Of a stretch of DNA of 32,519 bases, positions 9,874-19,261 are shown one piece after another; position 1 is the stretch's first letter, and each line of letters opens with the position of its first letter. Below the pieces are notes generated by a model, which worked only from the letters and a program-made list of their open reading frames with translations, had not been told where the DNA came from and did not search any database. The DNA is from an uncultured Opitutia bacterium (GTDB lineage: Bacteria; Verrucomicrobiota; Verrucomicrobiia; Opitutales; Opitutaceae). The position numbers and the translations under genes were made by a program. The DNA lies in the NCBI GenBank assembly GCA_903896015.1, contig CAITWF010000036.1, forward strand, positions 1-32,519, written 5' to 3'.

Positions 9874-11409
9874 ATGAAACCGCGGGGGGCGCGGCTCGTC
9901 TTTGCGAAAGTGAAGATCTCGCTGACCCCCGCCGAAGCGTGGCAACCGCAGCCCGCGACCGAGTGGAGCGCCGACGCCGCCCGCCATCTCCTTCGCCGCG
10001 CTGGCTGGACGGCGCAGCCCGCCGCCGTCGATCGCGCCGTTGGCGAGGGGCTCGCCACCACGCTCGAACGGCTCTTCCCTGTGGATCCGATCCTGATGCC
10101 CAAGCCCCGCGCGATCCAGCGCCTTGAGGGCGACGCGCCTGAGCTCGTTCAGGCCGCGCAGAAAATGAGCGGCGAGGAAAAATTCCGAGCGCAACGCGAA
10201 GTACAGGAGCGCCAGCGGATCGCCGTTCAGGATCTCAGTTTGAAATGGTTGCGCCACGCGGCCGAGCCGGATGGCTCCGCCTTCGCCAAGTGGGTCTTGT
10301 TTCTGAGCGACGTCTATGTCGTCTCGGCCGAAAAAGTCCGGAATCCCGCGCACCTTTTCGAACACATCGATCTGCTCGCCCGCCACGGGCTCGGCCCCGC
10401 GCCGGCCCTGACCAAGGCGATCTCGCGCTCGCCGGCGATGGTCACCTATCTCGATCTCAACCAGAGCCAAAAGCGCGCGCCGAACGAAAATTTCGCGCGC
10501 GAACTCTTCGAACTTTTCGTGCTCGGCGAGGGCAATTACACCGAGAAAGACATCAAGGAATCCGCCCGGGCCTTCACCGGCTATCGCGCGCAACCGTTCC
10601 GGGGGGACTTCCGATATGCGCCCGCCCAGCACGACGCGACATCCAAAACAATCTTTGGCCAAATCGGAAACTTCACGGGCGATGACGCAATCGATCTGGC
10701 CTACCAGCAGCGGGCGGCGGGCGCGTTTCTGCCGCATGAGCTCGTGAAGTTTTACCTGAGCAGTGATGAAATGTTGCCAGCGGAATACTTGTTCGCGCTC
10801 GGCGATCAGTGGCGTGCTGGCGGCTATGAGTTGCGCACCCTCGCGCATCGTTTCTTTGGAAGTCGGTTATTTTTCGCGCCGGAATTTCGCGGTAATTTCA
10901 TCAAGAGCCCGCTGCAATTTTACCTCGGCCTCGTGCAGGACTGGTCCCTCGACGTCCCGCCTCTGCCGCGCCTCACGATCAACTCCCTGCGGCAGATGGG
11001 CCAGTGGCCGTTTTACCCGCCGAATGTGCGCGGCTGGGTCGGCGGTCGCAACTGGATCAACTCCGCCACGCTCGCCTCGCGCCGACAGCTCGTGGAAATG
11101 CTCTTCACCCCGATCGACGAGCGCAGCCTCAACGCCGATGAGCAAGTCGATCTGCTCGCCGCGCGCGCCAACGGCAGCCCACACTTCACTGTCGATGATT
11201 CCGCACTCACCGGGCTTGCCCAACTCGATCCGTCGTCCGCCACCAATCGGCTGGTGCAAAATTTCCTGCCCGTGGCCGTGACGCCGGACTTTCGTGTGAG
11301 TGTCGAAAAATTTCTTTCGGTCGGCGCCACGGATGAAAAGCAGCGGTTGCGTCGCGCGCGACGCGCCGCCGTCACGCTGCTCCAATCACCCGAATACCAA
11401 CTTTGCTGA
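9874..11409 (+). CDS. DUF1800-domain protein
   Basis: A 511-residue member of the DUF1800 family, common in Verrucomicrobia and Planctomycetes and of unknown biochemical role. Family hallmarks are the opening AARHLLRRAGW segment, the highly conserved NENFARELFELFVLGEGNYTE followed by DIKESARAFTGYR near residues 205-240, and the later PPNVRGWVGGRNWINS block. No clear signal peptide is seen at the chosen ATG. The stop is followed 10 bases later by a DUF1501 gene. This pairing recurs widely, and the two products are thought to act together in the envelope or outside it. No enzyme activity is claimed. Confidence 0.88.
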   Translation: MKPRGARLVFAKVKISLTPAEAWQPQPATEWSADAARHLLRRAGWTAQPAAVDRAVGEGLATTLERLFPVDPILMPKPRAIQRLEGDAPELVQAAQKMSGEEKFRAQREVQERQRIAVQDLSLKWLRHAAEPDGSAFAKWVLFLSDVYVVSAEKVRNPAHLFEHIDLLARHGLGPAPALTKAISRSPAMVTYLDLNQSQKRAPNENFARELFELFVLGEGNYTEKDIKESARAFTGYRAQPFRGDFRYAPAQHDATSKTIFGQIGNFTGDDAIDLAYQQRAAGAFLPHELVKFYLSSDEMLPAEYLFALGDQWRAGGYELRTLAHRFFGSRLFFAPEFRGNFIKSPLQFYLGLVQDWSLDVPPLPRLTINSLRQMGQWPFYPPNVRGWVGGRNWINSATLASRRQLVEMLFTPIDERSLNADEQVDLLAARANGSPHFTVDDSALTGLAQLDPSSATNRLVQNFLPVAVTPDFRVSVEKFLSVGATDEKQRLRRARRAAVTLLQSPEYQLC

Positions 11410-11419
11410 GCAGTCTCCC

Positions 11420-12679
11420 ATGAAAAATTCCACGCCGTTTCTTCCCACCACTCGCCGCGAATTTCTCGCCCGTTCGAGCGGCGGGCTCGGCCTGATAGCG
11501 TTCAGCCGGTTCGCGCCATCGTTTCTCGTGCAGTCAACGCTCGCCGCCGCACCGGCCCCCGAAAAGGACCGCAGCATCCTTGTGCTTGTCCAACTCGCCG
11601 GCGGCAATGACGGGCTCAACACGCTCATTCCGTTTGAAGATGCCGACTATTATCGGCTGCGGCCGACGCTCGGGATAGCCAAAGACAAAGTCCTGCGCGC
11701 GAGCGACACGCTCGGCCTGCACCCCGCGATGGCGGCGATGCACGGCCTGCTCCACGACGGCAAACTCGCGGTTGTGCAGAACGTCGGCTACCCGAACCCG
11801 AACCGCAGCCACTTCCGATCGACGGAGATTTGGGAGACGGCCAGCCGGAGCGATGAGTTTGCCGCGACCGGTTGGATTGGGCGTTATTTGGATAACGCCT
11901 GCGCCGGCCAGCCCCTCGACTCACACGATCCGGTCGCGGTGCATGTCACTAACGGCGTGCCGCCGTCGTTTCTCGGCGCACGGGAGCACGCGACTTTCGG
12001 CTTGCAGCCCGGCGCGGGTAATCGCCGAGAAAACGAGGAGACGCGACAACTGCTCGAGAAGATGGTCGCGCAGACCGGCGCAGGCGACGAAAACGACAAC
12101 GGCACTTTTCTGCGACATACGCTGATGGATGCGCTCGTCACCGAGCAAAAAGTCCAGCGCTTACTCGGCGACTACCGGCCAGGCGCGGGTGTGAACTATC
12201 CGGGCAATCCGTTCGCGGCGTCGCTGCGGAACGTCGCCGCGTTAATCGCGGCCGGCCTGCCAACGCGCGTGTATTTCGTTTCGATCAGCGGCTTTGACAC
12301 CCACAGCAACCAACTCGCCGCGCAGGCAAATCTTCTCACGCAACTTTCCGATGGCCTCGCCGCATTTCAAAAAGATCTCGAGGCACATAAGCTCGATGGC
12401 CAAGTCATGACGATGACGTTTTCGGAGTTCGGCCGGCGCCCGAGCGAAAATGAAAGCCGGGGCACCGACCACGGCACGGCAGCGCCGCTCTTTGTTCTAG
12501 GATCGCGTGTAAGGGGCGGATTGCACGGCACCGCCCCCTCGCTGAAACTTGAACGCAATCAAGACCTGACATTCAGCACTGATTTTCGCCAGGTTTACGC
12601 GACCGCACTTGATAGCTGGCTCGGCTGCCCGAGCGCAGCCGTGCTGGGCGGTAAGTTTGACCGGCTCGGAATTATCTAA
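11420..12679 (+). CDS. DUF1501-domain protein with Tat signal
   Basis: A 419-residue exported protein. The N-terminus has a twin-arginine signal (TRREFLARSSGGLGL, then a hydrophobic stretch and LAAAPA), so it is probably exported folded. The DUF1501 family has an alkaline-phosphatase/sulfatase-like fold. Conserved stretches are QLAGGNDGLNTLIPF, the HPAM segment, SISGFDTHSNQ, SEFGRRPSENESRGTDHGTA and VRGGLHG. The Asp/His-rich segments suggest metal binding. I chose ATG 11420 because it starts the Tat signal; the frame is open upstream but overlaps the DUF1800 gene. It forms a two-gene unit with that gene. Substrate unknown. Confidence 0.9.
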   Translation: MKNSTPFLPTTRREFLARSSGGLGLIAFSRFAPSFLVQSTLAAAPAPEKDRSILVLVQLAGGNDGLNTLIPFEDADYYRLRPTLGIAKDKVLRASDTLGLHPAMAAMHGLLHDGKLAVVQNVGYPNPNRSHFRSTEIWETASRSDEFAATGWIGRYLDNACAGQPLDSHDPVAVHVTNGVPPSFLGAREHATFGLQPGAGNRRENEETRQLLEKMVAQTGAGDENDNGTFLRHTLMDALVTEQKVQRLLGDYRPGAGVNYPGNPFAASLRNVAALIAAGLPTRVYFVSISGFDTHSNQLAAQANLLTQLSDGLAAFQKDLEAHKLDGQVMTMTFSEFGRRPSENESRGTDHGTAAPLFVLGSRVRGGLHGTAPSLKLERNQDLTFSTDFRQVYATALDSWLGCPSAAVLGGKFDRLGII

Positions 12680-12690
12680 GTGGGTGATTA

Positions 12691-12703
12691 TGCGACACGT
12701 GTC
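12691..12703. promoter_or_regulatory. Candidate operator, copy 1 (palindrome GACACGTGTC)
   Basis: The 104-base gap before the PEP-CTERM gene contains TGCGACACGTGTC. Its last ten bases (12694-12703) are a perfect palindrome. The identical 13 bases recur at 17875-17887 ahead of the polygalacturonase. The site ends 80 bases before the gene's start codon. A perfect palindrome repeated in two promoter-sized gaps is what a dimeric repressor or activator site looks like. The regulator is not in the window. Confidence 0.5.
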
Positions 12704-12783
12704 TACGTAATTTTGCTTAAGTAGTATCCGTAGGTATTTGACCCTAGTTATCGGTTGAAGAAAAGGCGATTGGAGCCGATGCT

Positions 12784-15700
12784 TTGAATATCAAACTCAC
12801 ACGGCACAACCTCTTGTCATTATTCGCAGCTCTGGCGGCGGTAGTCGCATTACGGCTGACTGCGCAAACGGTGACGCTTTCCGGATCATTTACCGGCTCA
12901 ACACTCGATAGCGGATGGACCGTGGGCGGCTCAGGTTACACGCCCGTGTTGACGGCGTCGAGTGCGGGAGGAAACATCGACACCTCCGGCAACGGCTGGC
13001 TGCGGATGACCAGCAGTTCGGGCAATCAAGCGACGTACGCTTACGACACCAACTCTTTCGCAGCGGCCAACGCGACGATCACGGCCACGTTCAACTACTC
13101 GTCCTATAACGGCTCCGGCGCGGACGGCATCACGTTCTTCCTCGCCGACGCGAGTAAGACATTCGGGGTCGGAGCTTATGGCGGCAGTCTCGGCTACGCC
13201 CAGAAGACCGCGGCGGGTGGCGGTGGTGCAGATATCAACGGCATGAACGGCGGCTACATCGGCGTCGGTATCGATGAATTTGGCAATTTCTCCAACCCGA
13301 CGGAGGGCCGCATAGGCGGCACTGGCTCTACTCCGAATGCGGTCGCCGTGCGCGGCCCGGGTCAAGGCCTCACCGGTTACAACTACCTCGGCGGCACCGG
13401 CAACCTCGGCACCAACTCAATCGCGTTTCCCGCTTCAACCACCCGTCCGGCCGGTGCGAATCTTCGCACAATCCAAGTCGTCATCACCGCGACGAATCAA
13501 ATGACCGTATACATGGCGACCGGCGGCACGAATAATTTTATCCCGCTCTACTCGATCGATCTTTCGGGTTATACCCGGCCGGATTCGCTGATCATGGGCT
13601 TCACGTCAGGCACGGGCGGCGCGACGGACATCCACGAAATTCAGGCGGTAACACTTTCGAGCGTCGTTTCCAACCTCTGGAAAAACGCGAGCGGCGACAG
13701 CACATGGGCCACCGCGACAAACTGGAACAACACCCCGGCGGCCGTTCCGGCCAGCGGTTCCGACATCCTGCTCGACAACACCTTCGTCAGCTCCGCGCAA
13801 AATATTGCCGTCACCGGCACCAAGCTCATCCGCAATCTGCAAATCGACGCACCGTTCAGCTACACCCTCAGCGGCGGCACACTCGAACTAAACGGCAGTT
13901 CGGCGACCGGCCCGTCCGGAATCTTCGTGTCGCAGACCCACGGCTCAGCGACGCAGACCATCGGCTCAAACATCATCGCCGACAACGCGATTCAAATTCA
14001 GAACAACAGCACGTCGACGCTGGCCCTGACCGGCGCTACGGTCAGTCTCGGCAATTCGACCGCGACGCTCAATGGCAGCGGCAACACCACCATCTCCGGC
14101 ATCATTTCCGGCACCGGCACGGGCGCCAAGCTTGTTCAGAGCGGCACCGGCAGCACGACGCTTTCCGGCGCGAACACCTACTCCGGCGGCACGACTCTCA
14201 GCGCCGGCACGCTGACCGTGAACAACGCGACCGGACTCGGCACGGGAGCCCTCACGATCAACGGCGGCAACCTCAGTTCCACCAACGGCAGCAGCGTCTC
14301 CAACATTCTCACGCTTCAGGGCAACGTCGGCATCTCCGGCATCACGACCAGCGGCGCTCTCACGCAGACGGGCGGCAGCTACGTGGTGAATCTTTCCAAC
14401 GCCACCCAGTCCGGCATCGTCAACCTTTCCAACAACAACACGTCACAGACGCTCACTGTTCAAGTCGACAGCGGCAATTCCACGATCTCCGGCAACATCG
14501 TCAACGGCGGCACCGCCGCCGGCAACCTCACTAAAACCGGCAATGGCAATCTTGTTCTTTCCGGTACCAACACCTACACCGGCACGACCAATATCACGAC
14601 CGGTTCGATTGTCCTCGGCGGAAGCAACATTCTCGCGAACACCAGCAGCGTGGCCATCGGCGCGGCCGGCACCCTGAACCTCAACGGGTATTCGCAGCAA
14701 ATCGGCAACCTCACGGCCTCCGCCGGTGGAGCGACCATCGATTTCGGCACCGCGACAACCAACAACACGTTCGTCTTCGGCAAATACACGCCCCCGGCGA
14801 GCGGCGTTCTCGTCATCAACAATTATCAATCGGGCAACGATACGCTTGCCACCACGGTGGCCACCGGCAGCCAAGGCACCAACGGCACCCAAACGATCAA
14901 CAACTCCGTATATATTTCCGGTTACGGAGTCGCGACGGAAAACACCACGACCTCAAGCACGCTCTACGGCAGCGCTTACCTGCTTACGCCGGCGGTCGCT
15001 AGCACCAATGAGTGGAAAGGCACCACTAGCGTGAACTGGAATACTAACACGAATTGGAGCAGCGGCGCCAAACCTACCACGACGCAGATCGCTGTCTTCA
15101 ACACGCTGGGCACCGCCCAACCCAATGTCACCCTTAACGGCGCCAACACTATCGCCGGCGTCCAATTTGGTAACCAGAGCACCGCTAACTACAACATCTC
15201 AGGCGCCAACACCCTGACTCTCTCGGCCGCCATCCCGTACATTCAGCAGCAAAGCTCTAAGGACCAAACTCTCAGTCCCTCCGCGATCACGATCACCAAC
15301 AGTACCGTCGCCGATATCACCGGCGCCGGCAACCTCACGATCGGGGCAAACATTACAGGTGGAAACAGCACCGTGAACCTCATCAAGGACGGCACCGGCG
15401 CCGGCAAACTCATTCTCACCGGCAACAACACCGGCCTCACCGGGAGCGTTTACGTGAACAACGGCATCGTCCAAGCCGGCAATACCAAGGCCCTCGGCAC
15501 CAATACCACATACGTCAGTGGCGGCAGCACTCTCGAACTTTCCGGCGGCATCAGTCCCACCAACGCCATCTCCGTGTCCGGTGCCGGCGTCGGTAGCGCG
15601 GGTGCCATTCATAACGTCAATGGCAGCAACACGCTCTCCGGCACCATCACCGAGGCAGCCGATGCCGTCATCGCCGCCGACTCCGCCACCACGTTGAGCC

Positions 15701-17325
15701 TCACGGGAAATCTCACCGGAACGAACACCAATACCACGCTTTCCGGCGCGGGCAACACAACCCTCAGCCTCATCACGACCGGAACTGGCAACGTGCTCGT
15801 CAACAGCACGGGCACGACCACGTTCAGCGGTTCCGCTGCCAATACTTACACCGGCACGACCACGCTCAACGCGGGCACGCTCACTCTCGCCAAGACCGCC
15901 AACATCACCGCCATCGCCGGCAATCTGACCATCAATGGCGGCACGGTGAATGAAAATGCCAGCGGCCAAATCTCCTCCACCGCCACCGTCGCGCTCAACG
16001 GGGGCACCCTCGCCCTCGGAGCCAGCGTCACCAACACCTTCTCCACGATCACCAGCGCGAGCGGCAGCACCCTCAATCTCGGCAGCAGTGCCGTCGCGAC
16101 GATCAACAGCTCCGGCTCCAACCTCCTCAGCGGCAATGTTACCGGCGCCGGCGGCCTTTCAACGTCCGGTACTGGCAGCGTGACGCTCGGCGGCACCAAC
16201 ACCTACTCCGGCGGCACGGCCGTTGGCTCCATCGTCACGCCGATTTCAAGCACGGCGTTCGGCACCGGCACCGTCGCGGTAAATTCCGGTGGTAGTGTCG
16301 AAACCCAAAATACCGTCAATCTCGCCAACAATTTCACGCTCAACAGCACGGGCACCACCGCCTACAATGGCGCGATCGAAAACATCTCCGGCAACACGAC
16401 CCTCTCCGGCACCGTCACCCTTGCCGGCAGTTCACGCCTCCAATCCGACTCCGGCACCCTCACCGCTTCCAACACGGTCGCGCTTGCCGGCAACACGCTC
16501 AACGTTGGCGGCTCGGGCAATACAACGATTAGCGGCGCGATCACTGGCACCGCTGCCAGCAGCCTCACTAAGGACGGTACCGGCACCCTCGCCCTCGGCG
16601 GCACCAACACGTTCGCCGGAACCGTCGTCGTCAACGCGGGCACTGTGCTCGCCAATGCGGCCAACGTGTTCAACAGCTCGAATCAGATTACGGTCAACAC
16701 CGGCTCGATTCTCAACCTCAACAGCTTGGCCGAGACAGTCGCATCCATCACCAACAACGGCACCCTTGCATTGGGCAGCGGTGGCACCCTTACACTCAGC
16801 GCCGGCGCGAGCACACTCGGTGGCACCATGACCGGCAGCGGCTACATTGTGATCGGGCCCGGCACGTCACTTACCCTCGCCGCCAACTTCAACGCGCCCA
16901 ACGTCAATTTCATCCTCAATGGCGGCACGCTCAATCTGAATGGCACCTCGGACACCTTCGGCAATATCGCCGTGACCTCTGCCTCCGTGCTCGACTTCGG
17001 CAGCAGCACCGCCTCCACGCTCAACTCCAGCGTCGTCCAGTTGGTCGGCAGCGCCACTCTCTCCGTCACAAACTGGGTCAACACCGTCGACTATTTCTAC
17101 ACCCAAAATTTCACCGGTGCGACCCTCGGCAACCGCGGCGGCACTCCGTTGAACCAAGTCACCTTTACCGGCTTCAGCAGCAACAGCACTGCGTGGCAGT
17201 CTTGGGATCACCAAATCACCCCAGCGCCCGAACCCGCCACCTATGGCGCAATCTTCACCGGTGCAGCCCTCGGTCTCCTCGCCTGGCGCCGCCGGCAAAA
17301 AACGACCGCGTCCGTTGCCGAATAA
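12784..17325 (+). CDS. PEP-CTERM surface protein: lectin-like domain plus autotransporter-type beta-strand repeats
   Basis: A 1,513-residue secreted protein. I chose TTG 12784 because GGAG (12772-12775) lies 8 bases upstream and the next residues form a signal peptide (LLSLFAALAAVVALRLTAQ). Residues about 29-290 resemble a bacterial L-type (legume-like) lectin domain, with DGITFFLADASK, GGSLGYA and GGYIGVGIDEFGNF. From about 297 comes a WKNASGDSTWATATNWNN segment. At least six autotransporter-associated beta-strand repeats follow, starting near residues 448, 580, 865, 1003, 1122 and 1259 (type TKTGNGNLVLSGTNTYTG), consistent with a long right-handed beta-helix. The tail is a PEP-CTERM signal: PAPEPATYGAIF, a hydrophobic helix, then RRRQ. 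There is no beta-barrel. Exosortase processing and surface anchoring are expected; carbohydrate binding is inferred. Confidence 0.9.
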   Translation: MNIKLTRHNLLSLFAALAAVVALRLTAQTVTLSGSFTGSTLDSGWTVGGSGYTPVLTASSAGGNIDTSGNGWLRMTSSSGNQATYAYDTNSFAAANATITATFNYSSYNGSGADGITFFLADASKTFGVGAYGGSLGYAQKTAAGGGGADINGMNGGYIGVGIDEFGNFSNPTEGRIGGTGSTPNAVAVRGPGQGLTGYNYLGGTGNLGTNSIAFPASTTRPAGANLRTIQVVITATNQMTVYMATGGTNNFIPLYSIDLSGYTRPDSLIMGFTSGTGGATDIHEIQAVTLSSVVSNLWKNASGDSTWATATNWNNTPAAVPASGSDILLDNTFVSSAQNIAVTGTKLIRNLQIDAPFSYTLSGGTLELNGSSATGPSGIFVSQTHGSATQTIGSNIIADNAIQIQNNSTSTLALTGATVSLGNSTATLNGSGNTTISGIISGTGTGAKLVQSGTGSTTLSGANTYSGGTTLSAGTLTVNNATGLGTGALTINGGNLSSTNGSSVSNILTLQGNVGISGITTSGALTQTGGSYVVNLSNATQSGIVNLSNNNTSQTLTVQVDSGNSTISGNIVNGGTAAGNLTKTGNGNLVLSGTNTYTGTTNITTGSIVLGGSNILANTSSVAIGAAGTLNLNGYSQQIGNLTASAGGATIDFGTATTNNTFVFGKYTPPASGVLVINNYQSGNDTLATTVATGSQGTNGTQTINNSVYISGYGVATENTTTSSTLYGSAYLLTPAVASTNEWKGTTSVNWNTNTNWSSGAKPTTTQIAVFNTLGTAQPNVTLNGANTIAGVQFGNQSTANYNISGANTLTLSAAIPYIQQQSSKDQTLSPSAITITNSTVADITGAGNLTIGANITGGNSTVNLIKDGTGAGKLILTGNNTGLTGSVYVNNGIVQAGNTKALGTNTTYVSGGSTLELSGGISPTNAISVSGAGVGSAGAIHNVNGSNTLSGTITEAADAVIAADSATTLSLTGNLTGTNTNTTLSGAGNTTLSLITTGTGNVLVNSTGTTTFSGSAANTYTGTTTLNAGTLTLAKTANITAIAGNLTINGGTVNENASGQISSTATVALNGGTLALGASVTNTFSTITSASGSTLNLGSSAVATINSSGSNLLSGNVTGAGGLSTSGTGSVTLGGTNTYSGGTAVGSIVTPISSTAFGTGTVAVNSGGSVETQNTVNLANNFTLNSTGTTAYNGAIENISGNTTLSGTVTLAGSSRLQSDSGTLTASNTVALAGNTLNVGGSGNTTISGAITGTAASSLTKDGTGTLALGGTNTFAGTVVVNAGTVLANAANVFNSSNQITVNTGSILNLNSLAETVASITNNGTLALGSGGTLTLSAGASTLGGTMTGSGYIVIGPGTSLTLAANFNAPNVNFILNGGTLNLNGTSDTFGNIAVTSASVLDFGSSTASTLNSSVVQLVGSATLSVTNWVNTVDYFYTQNFTGATLGNRGGTPLNQVTFTGFSSNSTAWQSWDHQITPAPEPATYGAIFTGAALGLLAWRRRQKTTASVAE
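14127..16660 (+). repeat. Coding repeats of the beta-strand (PATR-type) family
   Basis: Degenerate repeats within the PEP-CTERM gene encode units of the type L-x-K-x-G-x-G-x-L-x-L-x-G-x-N-T-Y-x-G-x-T. They are clearest at about 14127, 14524, 15376, 15792, 16150 and 16561. Two copies still share an identical 21-base run, at 14173-14193 and 16198-16218, which suggests recent duplication or conversion. Others match only as protein. Confidence 0.8.
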
Positions 17326-17372
17326 AATCCTTTCTCCGCGATAAGCGGTGACATTACGCCAACAGATTCCAA

Positions 17373-17402
17373 GGCCGCCCCACCGGGCGGCCTCGTTCTT
17401 TG
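17373..17402 (+). terminator. Rho-independent terminator after the PEP-CTERM gene
   Basis: A perfect 8-pair GC-rich stem (GGCCGCCC/GGGCGGCC) with a CACC loop at 17373-17392, followed by the T-rich TCGTTCTTTG. It lies 47 bases after the PEP-CTERM stop codon and before the next gene. Confidence 0.75.
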
Positions 17403-17433
17403 CTTCCGCTGGAATCAAGCTTCACTTGTCGCT

Positions 17434-17796
17434 ATGCCCAACCCCGCTCCGCCGCCACCCGCCCATCCCGCGCCCAAGTCTCGCCCATTTCACCGCCGTT
17501 TTCTCGGCGCCGTCTTTCTGTCCGGCGCTCTCATCAGCGCATCCCTCGGCCTCGGCGTCCTCGGCTACCATTTTGTCGCAAACCTCAACTGGATCGACGC
17601 TCTGCTCAACGCCTCAATGATCCTCACCGGCATGGGGCCAGTGAATACCCTCGGCACCACAGCCGCCAAACTCTTTGCCTCCGCTTACGCGCTCTTTTCC
17701 GGCCTCATTCTGATTTCCGCGAGCGGCATTTTGCTCACTCCGATCTTCCATCGCGTGCTCCACCGCTTTCATATCGAGGAACGCGATCTCAAGTAG
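17434..17796 (+). CDS. Small two-helix membrane protein with a K+-channel-like pore segment
   Basis: A 120-residue protein with a proline-rich N-terminus (residues 1-18) and a first transmembrane helix (about 23-48, FLGAVFLSGALISASLGLGVLGYHF). A short re-entrant-looking segment follows (52-72, WIDALLNASMILTGMGPV). The second helix (about 78-104, KLFASAYALFSGLILISASG) leads into a charged tail. The helix-pore-helix order, and the KLFASAYALFSG segment after the loop, resemble two-helix potassium channels. However, the selectivity filter TVGYG is replaced by TGMGP (65-69). I do not assign a transport function. It is separated from the upstream gene by a terminator and precedes the pectinase genes on the same strand. 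Confidence 0.75.
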   Translation: MPNPAPPPPAHPAPKSRPFHRRFLGAVFLSGALISASLGLGVLGYHFVANLNWIDALLNASMILTGMGPVNTLGTTAAKLFASAYALFSGLILISASGILLTPIFHRVLHRFHIEERDLK

Positions 17797-17874
17797 CCGC
17801 CACGCTACTCGCCCGCCCTCCTCCATTTTTTTCGTATCCACAGCCGGGCTGGCGCGTCTGCTCCTTGTGCGCTT

Positions 17875-17887
17875 TGCGACACGTGTC
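17875..17887. promoter_or_regulatory. Candidate operator, copy 2 (palindrome GACACGTGTC)
   Basis: TGCGACACGTGTC, identical over 13 bases to the site at 12691-12703. The perfect 10-base palindrome is at 17878-17887. It ends 27 bases before the polygalacturonase ATG (17915), where binding could block or recruit RNA polymerase. The rest of the 118-base gap holds a T-run at 17826-17832 but no convincing -35/-10 pair. Confidence 0.5.
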
Positions 17888-17914
17888 CCAGTTTCACCCC
17901 GCCCCCTCCAGCCC

Positions 17915-19261
17915 ATGACCATTCCCCTCGTCTCCGCTCGTTCTCGCTTCTCTGCTGCACTCCCGCTTGCCGTGATCGCACTTGCCGTGCCGCTCACCGC
18001 CGCCGACGTCGATGTCACCGCCGCCGAGCACGTCCACCCCGCACTTCCTGTAATCCCTGACCGCACCTTCAACCTTGCCGACTTCGGTGCTGTCGGCGAC
18101 GGCGCGACGCTCAATACCGCAGCCTTTACGAACGCCATCGCTGCCATCGACAAAGCCGGCGGAGGTAAACTCGTCGTCCCACGCGGCGTCTTCGTCACCG
18201 CGCCCTTCAAACTTTGCTCCGCGCTCAATCTCCACCTCGACGACGGCGCGGTGATCAAGGCCCCCGAGACCTTCGAAGCCCTCGGCCTGCCGAATCCCGC
18301 CCAGTTCAAGACTCAGTCCGAACTCAACGCCGCCTTCCACGTCCCCGATCCGCTCATCACCGGCACGAAGCTCCACGACGTCGCCCTCACCGGCTCCGGC
18401 ACGGTCGATGGCAGCGGAGCGCACTGGTGGGCGTGGTCCGAGCGCGCCGCACGCAGCGCCAAGACCAAAGGCGAACCCGGTCGCGTCATCATCCGCCGCC
18501 CGCACCTCGTCACCTTCAACGGCATCGAGCGCCTCCATGTCACCGGCGTCACGTTCACCAACTCCTCGATGTTCCACCTCGTCCCACGCAATATCACCGA
18601 CCTCACCATCGATCACGTGAAAGTGCGCGCACCCTACGACGGCTCCGGTCCCAACACCGACGCCATTGATCCTGGCCCCGGCACCAACTTTTGGATCCAC
18701 GATTGCGATATCGATAATGGCGATGACGACATCGTGATCAAATCAGGCGGCACCAACATCCTGATCGAGAACAACACGATCAAACACGGCCACGGCATCT
18801 CGATCGGCTCGGAGACGAGCGTCGGCATCCACAACATGCTCGTCCGCAACTGCACCTTCGACGGCACCGACAACGGCATCCGCCTGAAATCAATGCGCGG
18901 CGCTGGCGGCCCGGTGGAAAACATCCGCTACACCAATCTTCACATGAAGAACGTCGCCAATGCGATCGTTCTCCAACTCGACTACGTCGACAACAACCGC
19001 CCCGACTTCAAGGGCGATCCGACCAAAGTCCCGTCGATCCACAACATCCTCCTCGATCACATCACCATCGAAGGCGCGCGCAACGCCGGGATCATCCACG
19101 GCCTCCCCGACAGCAAGATCACCAACATCACGCTTAAGGATATATCGATCGTCGCAGAAAAAGACCTCGACGTGCGCGACGCCGACAACCCGATCTACAT
19201 CAGCGTCACGCGCGACATCCGCCCCGGCGTTGGCCCGAGGAAAGAGTCAGGCGAGCACTGA
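17915..19261 (+). CDS. Polygalacturonase, glycoside hydrolase family 28
   Basis: Secreted right-handed beta-helix enzyme that hydrolyses alpha-1,4-galacturonan (pectin backbone). The 448-residue product starts with a signal peptide (SAALPLAVIALAVPLTAADV), which supports ATG 17915 over an upstream GTG at 17867 that would swallow the putative operator. The N-terminal block is NLADFGAVGDGATLNTAAF. GH28 catalytic motifs appear in order: NTDAID (247-252, Asp249), GDDDIVIKSG (269-278, Asp270 and Asp271; the family usually has GDDC), GHGISIGSE (292-300) and RLK (323-325). All essential residues are present. The next gene is a pectate lyase 52 bases away. Family assignment is firm; exo or endo action and exact substrate are not decided. 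Confidence 0.93.
   Translation: MTIPLVSARSRFSAALPLAVIALAVPLTAADVDVTAAEHVHPALPVIPDRTFNLADFGAVGDGATLNTAAFTNAIAAIDKAGGGKLVVPRGVFVTAPFKLCSALNLHLDDGAVIKAPETFEALGLPNPAQFKTQSELNAAFHVPDPLITGTKLHDVALTGSGTVDGSGAHWWAWSERAARSAKTKGEPGRVIIRRPHLVTFNGIERLHVTGVTFTNSSMFHLVPRNITDLTIDHVKVRAPYDGSGPNTDAIDPGPGTNFWIHDCDIDNGDDDIVIKSGGTNILIENNTIKHGHGISIGSETSVGIHNMLVRNCTFDGTDNGIRLKSMRGAGGPVENIRYTNLHMKNVANAIVLQLDYVDNNRPDFKGDPTKVPSIHNILLDHITIEGARNAGIIHGLPDSKITNITLKDISIVAEKDLDVRDADNPIYISVTRDIRPGVGPRKESGEH

Follow-up and report, generated by a model that had tools for sequence, protein, structure and literature searches.

A candidate LacI-family operator for pectin breakdown in Opitutaceae

Why would one short palindrome stand ahead of both a gene for a large, lectin-like PEP-CTERM protein and a pectinase operon in an uncultured bacterium of the Opitutaceae? 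The window, by which we mean the whole stretch of 32,519 nucleotides analysed here, is the entire contig C36 of a 4.96-Mb genome in 123 contigs, and a reading of its sequence alone had placed an identical 13-base site in front of these two plus-strand genes. The 13-mer TGCGACACGTGTC is found exactly there, at 12691-12703 and 17875-17887 of the plus strand, without a mismatch; the sole further match in the window at up to two mismatches is the second site on the reverse strand. What we observe are the sites, the genes that follow them, genes for candidate regulators, and a co-occurrence of site and regulator across genera; from these we propose that the core of the 13-mer, GACACGTGTC, is very likely the operator of an Opitutaceae clade of LacI-family proteins that controls pectin breakdown, binding being predicted from sequence.

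The two window sites and their genes

The core is an even palindrome of 10 bp, whose halves GACAC and GTGTC meet at a central CG. Site 1 lies in a gap of 104 bp (12680-12783), with 80 nt between the end of its core and the TTG start codon of the PEP-CTERM gene; site 2 lies in a gap of 118 bp (17797-17914), its core ending 27 nt ahead of the ATG of a GH28 gene. Against a 16-bp form of the palindrome, site 2 has one mismatch and site 1 three. From base composition, that of the window, one would expect the 13-mer 0.0013 times per window and 0.20 times per 4.96-Mb genome, which agrees with the earlier judgement that identity of 13 bases between two gaps of about 100 bases is improbable by chance; for the 10-bp core, the expectation is 5.5 copies per genome. 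A scan for sigma-70-type promoters found none at either gap.

Table 1. Features of the window and intergenic places of the palindrome on other contigs of the genome
Feature	Position	Strand	Remark
Site 1, TGCGACACGTGTCTAC	12691..12706	+	Exact core GACACGTGTC at 12694-12703; half-site flanks C and A
Block CCGTAGGTATTTGACCCTAGTT	12728..12749	+	Lies after site 1 and ahead of the PEP-CTERM gene, whose promoter element it may be
PEP-CTERM gene product, 1513 aa	12784..17325	+	Legume-lectin-like N-terminus, beta-strand repeats (PATR, TIGR02601), C-terminal PEP-CTERM-like motif by eye
Terminator-like hairpin	17372..17393	+	Behind the PEP-CTERM gene; 9 pairs, 8 of them G-C
ORF, 120 aa	17434..17796	+	Between the PEP-CTERM gene and site 2; without counterpart in the G001 alignment
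Site 2, TGCGACACGTGTCCCA	17875..17890	+	Exact core GACACGTGTC at 17878-17887; half-site flanks C and G
GH28 polygalacturonase family protein, 448 aa	17915..19261	+	First gene behind site 2
PL2-type pectate lyase, 584 aa	19314..21068	+	Second gene behind site 2
Intergenic palindrome place	C54:42775-42790		Perfect 16-bp; before a pectinesterase with Ig domains
Intergenic palindrome place	C95:8892		Before a pectinesterase
Intergenic palindrome place	C27:115988		Before a GH28 gene
Intergenic palindrome place	C22:14084		Before a GDSL esterase

Given the 120-residue ORF and the terminator-like hairpin between them, the PEP-CTERM and GH28 genes look like separate transcription units. Three terminator-like hairpins were found in 17300-17930, where shuffled sequences gave a mean of 0.6. 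The ORF contains hydrophobic stretches and is missing at that place in G001, the one further genome of this genus in our set. A DUF1800 and a DUF1501 gene adjoin each other at 9874-12679, immediately before the PEP-CTERM gene.

The lectin domain that had been proposed for the PEP-CTERM protein is tentatively supported by its residues 1-300, which resemble legume lectins by sequence (1gsl, E 0.0014) and have legume lectins as their top Foldseek matches (best 2pel, E 2.2e-9, from a model with a mean pLDDT of only 49.3). On these matches 'lectin' is a fair label, the ligand and any handling of pectin being putative. The sorting motif was seen by eye, and no PEP-CTERM model in Pfam or NCBIfam matched at E<=0.001.

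The palindrome in this genome and its relatives

Outside the window, the exact 13-mer occurs at one place only, inside the perfect 16-bp palindrome TGCGACACGTGTCGCA on C54. With one mismatch allowed there are 11 distinct places genome-wide (13 strand matches), five of them inside called genes (C8, C26, C28, C33 and C105). Five of the six intergenic places precede GH28, pectinesterase or GDSL esterase genes, and the sixth precedes the PEP-CTERM gene; the GDSL esterase is, from its motif, presumably of the rhamnogalacturonan-acetylesterase type. The genome scan suggested by the sequence-only reading thus returns intergenic matches that lie mostly before pectin-type genes.

The exact core occurs at eight places, compared with none for a reversed-pattern control. 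Two are coding (C26, C82), and six are intergenic, preceding GH28 genes (C36, C61), pectinesterase genes (C54, C95), the PEP-CTERM gene and a gene on C31 that is TonB-receptor-like by sub-cut-off matches only and whose neighbour looks copper-related by eye. Because composition alone predicts 5.5 copies, copy number is weak evidence and was dropped as an argument; the evidence is location. Four of the six intergenic cores stand before GH28 or pectinesterase genes, for which the probability of at least four of six is 4e-9 to 6e-7 if 19-60 pectin genes are taken among an assumed 4200 genes. Over 37 genomes of the family the core is present at 77 places and the reversed pattern at 19, the latter being a weak control as it lacks CpG. 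The wider form SGACANNTGTCS gave 15 places against 3 for its reversed pattern, nine of the 15 intergenic; further intergenic places, with genes labelled by eye, are on C16 (between sigma-factor-like and leuA-like genes), C17 (TonB-receptor-like), C83 (esterase-like, resembling a glucuronoyl esterase of G001) and C123 (unknown).

From the end of the core to the start codon the distance is 25-27 nt at four sites (site 2, C54, C95 and C27), and 11, 58 and 145 nt at C22, C61 and C31, respectively. The genome has 14 GH28 matches. Those on C36, C27 and C61 have 9 or 10 matching core bases near their starts, and the C54 GH28 gene sits within the gene run behind the C54 site; ten of the 14 have no core match of at least 9 in the stretch searched, for which the frame used reached, in several cases, well upstream of the likely start, and the exact core is lacking at 12 of the 14, being present only at C36 and C61. 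A place at C22:16926, with three mismatches and before a LysR gene, was treated as chance, and GCGATAGGTGTCCCA (C13, C31) was dropped as lying inside receptor-like coding sequence.

Which genes follow the palindrome in relatives? We read 60 distinct core copies at loci of 12 genomes, the loci having been chosen partly for their sites. GH28 genes lie directly behind intergenic cores in G001 (two), G007, G018 and G024, and Ig-domain pectinesterase genes do so in G007 and G034. In G024 the genes behind intergenic cores include those for a pectic acid lyase (PF09492) and an MFS transporter, and on its contig C104 a TonB receptor (by Pfam) follows a core. A glucuronoyl-esterase family protein is encoded behind a core in G001, acetate kinase and transketolase in G029, and in G034 a protein with a partial match to tagaturonate epimerase (UxaE; 36.1 bits, cut-off 27.1). 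Seven other long genes had no Pfam match at 1e-8, two of them having sub-cut-off TonB matches. For five intergenic cores (L167, L182, L184, L197 and L198), no suitably oriented gene was called within 450 bp. The gene caller places some likely regulatory sites inside spurious ORFs (L158, L165 and L171).

In G001 and G024, a GACACGTGTC site separates GH28 genes from divergently oriented genes for large LamG-domain proteins (L185:169-3930, L176:154-4002), which are a second kind of lectin-like protein tied to the palindrome. In four genomes, a core lies inside what by eye is a nitroreductase-like gene (L149:5486, L183:4007, L190:4015 and L196:4042), a recurrence that is probably due to chance via conserved protein sequence. 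Genomes without a close homologue of the LacI protein described below also hold the core, mostly in coding DNA (six copies in G014, four in G022). Intergenic cores account for 37 of 51 copies in genomes with a close homologue versus 3 of 9 in G014 and G022 together (P 0.049), a comparison made on loci partly picked for their sites and with a home-made gene caller.

Candidate regulators and the flanking base

On C54, the perfect 16-bp site lies between a LacI-family gene (370 aa; PF00356, PF13377), which it follows, and the gene for the Ig-domain pectinesterase, which it precedes. The helix-turn-helix of the LacI protein (PF00356) scores 35.4 bits (cut-off 27) and its periplasmic-binding-protein-like sensor (PF13377) 121.1 bits (cut-off 26.5), and its solved relatives by profile are CcpA, LacI and PurR. 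A second pectinesterase gene and the GH28 gene come after the Ig-domain pectinesterase on the same strand. Genes for a ketopantoate-reductase family protein and for a fusion of class II aldolase and short-chain dehydrogenase lie beyond lacI on its other side; the fusion resembles rhamnulose-phosphate aldolase fusions. The Ig-domain pectinesterase here (L029:5273-9751, corresponding to G000 C54:38272-42750 on the minus strand of this genome) contains one in-frame stop after 74 codons, which may reflect either a true nonsense mutation or a fault of assembly; its counterparts at L250, L252, L247 and L155 are long and uninterrupted.

Matches to the C54 LacI protein at E<=1e-30 occur in 23 of the 57 genomes searched. 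This genome has three such genes, on C54, C13 (53%) and C40 (41%), and G001 has one homologue (55%), of the ARTT type introduced below, with none of the SRSA type at that threshold. No palindrome site was found upstream of the C13 gene or of the G001 gene (L217). The C54 and C13 proteins fall below the equivalog cut-offs of the named NCBIfam LacI groups (RbsR, GntR, CytR, CcpA and others), the best such model being RbsR with 132.6 and 144.8 bits, respectively, at a cut-off of 382.

The association of site and regulator extends to other genera. Among the first 12 LacI loci inspected there, five carry a perfect palindrome with the exact core in their upstream region (G007 C22, where it is present twice, G007 C23, G031, G018 and G029), and G003 has GACAATTGTC. 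A scan of named genomes confirmed 99 LacI loci, of which 80 were kept: 49 records from Opitutaceae, Opitutae or Verrucomicrobia and 31 distant LacI proteins (23-32% identity). The exact core lies within 350 bp upstream of 13 of the 49 family-type homologues, and GACANNTGTC upstream of 21, versus none of the 31 distant proteins in either case; hence the core is very probably the operator of one LacI clade. In 200 dinucleotide shuffles the means were 0.010 loci for the core and 0.115 for GACANNTGTC, with a maximum of 1, and after merging of similar proteins the exact core is present in 12 and the wider form in 20 of 39 clusters. The core occurs in 13 loci across 17,097 upstream bases; elsewhere in these loci, 524,817 bases contain 17 copies. 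No other palindromic 10-mer lies upstream of more than two of the 49 homologues. A GACANNTGTC site is lacking upstream of 28 of them, many of which belong to one clade (L218-L227, L249, L254 and kin). Taken with the genome scan and the candidate regulator, the palindromes upstream of regulator homologues in other genera give good support to the pectinase part of the regulon envisaged by the sequence-only reading.

The base beside the core varies with the recognition helix of the neighbouring regulator. Counted from -500 to +1500 of the LacI match, 21 sites (42 half-sites) accompany an ARTT helix, the flanking base being G in 37, A in five and C in none; six sites in five loci accompany an SRSA or SRST helix, with C in 12 of 12 half-sites. 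One ARST and one SRAT site were kept out of these counts, neither having C on both sides and the SRAT site having one C-type half. Fisher's P for flank versus helix type is 3e-6 on whole sites, which is overstated because the SRSA/SRST proteins form a single clade (SH-aLRT 99 in a quick tree of 53 rows, built without the fragments L242 and L251), so that the change of helix is one event. Within this clade the regulator adjoins an Ig-domain pectinesterase in five of six loci (C54 of this genome, L250, L252, L247 and L155); at L246, of the SRSA type, it lies about 4 kb from one, and no site was found.

In this genome the half-site flanks beyond the window are C/C at C54 and C22, A/C at C95, C/G at C27, G/C at C83, and G/G at C61, C31 and C17. 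The four intergenic cores of G001 have one C in eight half-sites, which belongs to a G/C site before a GH28 gene resembling the orthologue of the C27 GH28. TGCG-flanked sites are commoner where an SRSA paralogue exists, and a mixed site is no proof of such a paralogue. With one C-type half each, the window sites could be read by either paralogue or by both. A firm assignment of both to the C54 protein was withdrawn on account of these single halves and of the mixed G/C site in G001, which has no SRSA-type homologue; on balance, we provisionally predict the C54 protein as their reader. Of the earlier proposal of one dimeric regulator, the dimer is supported, and 'one' may be two paralogues with overlapping sites.

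We propose the following model. The candidate regulators are the SRSA-helix protein of C54, with a perfect 16-bp site beside its gene, and the ARTT-helix paralogue on C13. A LacI dimer would bind the palindrome near the start codon, overlapping promoter or leader, and block transcription until a pectin-derived sugar, perhaps a product of galacturonate or rhamnogalacturonan type, releases it. Classical LacI repression is most likely, and would fit the position of the sites close to start codons; both the effector and the sign of regulation are what we infer. More tentatively, we speculate that, after duplication of a LacI repressor, the pectin regulon of the Opitutaceae has started to divide through a change of the base pair on either side of the shared GACACGTGTC (G for ARTT, C for SRSA), and that in this species the newer branch has recruited, along with secreted pectinases, an autotransporter-like protein that bears a lectin domain and is anchored at the surface. 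The single C-type halves of the window sites and the mixed site in G001 lower the odds of such a split. If it were true, attachment to pectin and its digestion would be switched on together.

Could the two 13-mers instead have arisen by chance, or be a repeat without regulatory function? Composition leads one to expect 5.5 copies of the 10-bp core, and some copies do lie in coding DNA, but its positions ahead of pectin genes and, in several genera, ahead of LacI genes make this highly improbable, and a chance repeat was rejected on gene context and the cross-genus footprint. The palindrome might also be the operator of another regulator, with the neighbouring LacI genes merely among its targets. 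Regulator genes can be targets of other regulators, the same site stands ahead of many genes, and 28 of 49 LacI homologues are without it. We nevertheless consider this improbable, since the base beside the core shifts with the recognition helix of the adjacent LacI protein (in one clade, as one event) and an even palindrome with a central CG is the form given for LacI sites in part of the text of PMC4052901.

Does the PEP-CTERM gene belong to the regulon? The G001 orthologue shares 70% identity with it and likewise has a GH28 gene behind it, so this neighbourhood is older than the species. However, the palindrome is absent from the 300 bp upstream of the orthologues in G001, G004 and G021, where the best core matches are 7/10 in G001 and G021 and 8/10 in G004; this runs counter to the membership claimed earlier and makes the gene only a probable member. 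It is possible, if rather unlikely, that operator and pectin regulon are real but that site 1 arose by chance, the PEP-CTERM gene being driven solely by a promoter block of its own. Where the palindrome is lacking in G001 and G004, the stretch of CCGTAGGTATTTGACCCTAGTT beside site 1 that ends in ACCCTAGTT is partly kept, and site 1 lies farther from its start codon than the four pectin sites at 25-27 nt. Yet the exact 13-mer, rare as it should be, stands in a 104-bp gap beside a pectinase operon with the same site, and sites turn over between this genome and G001 at clear pectin genes too: the G001 orthologues of the C95 pectinesterase and of the C54-operon GH28 have 7/10 and 6/10 core bases, and the position of site 2 reads GCGGGCACCTGTCCGC there, a degenerate 8/10. 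The ACCCTAGTT block is not supported as a general PEP-CTERM promoter element, TTNACCCTAGTT being rarer than its reversed control (13 places in 11 of 34 genomes, one of them in this genome). We judge from sequence that site 1 is probably functional and that the PEP-CTERM gene would respond through it.

Relation to known systems

Given a candidate operator and two candidate repressors, dispersed pectinase genes of related genomes could be predicted to form a regulon. How duplicated repressors come to divide their targets could be tested on a natural example, in which helix type and flanking base are paired. In Erwinia and Dickeya, the IclR-family KdgR is one repressor that governs scattered pectinase and uronate genes. 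The system proposed here is alike in placing such genes under a repressor, and differs in protein family and operator. In searches of the open-licence PMC literature, no listing or beginning of an abstract described a regulator of pectin genes in Opitutaceae, and the letters of the core led to no account of this regulon either.

Among LacI-family regulators, sites are mostly even palindromes with a central CG and lie mostly 30-140 bp upstream, according to part of the text of Ravcheev et al. 2014 (PMC4052901), in which neither Verrucomicrobia nor pectin is mentioned. The form of the present operator fits that description, whereas several of its distances are below 30. The LacI-family uronate regulators ExuR, UxaR, UxuR and KdgR are described in the same portion as controlling the use of galacturonate and glucuronate; compared by description only, the clade proposed here differs in having an operator of its own and in counting extracellular pectinases and esterases among its predicted targets. 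Camas et al. 2010 (PMC2978694) found, through local regulation, that residues of the recognition helix vary along with bases of the operator, NT-6 going with residue 20. Here, in the register of our own alignment, residue 20 is Arg in both helix types and NT-6 still differs. We regard operator and regulator as a new group of a known kind, the LacI family.
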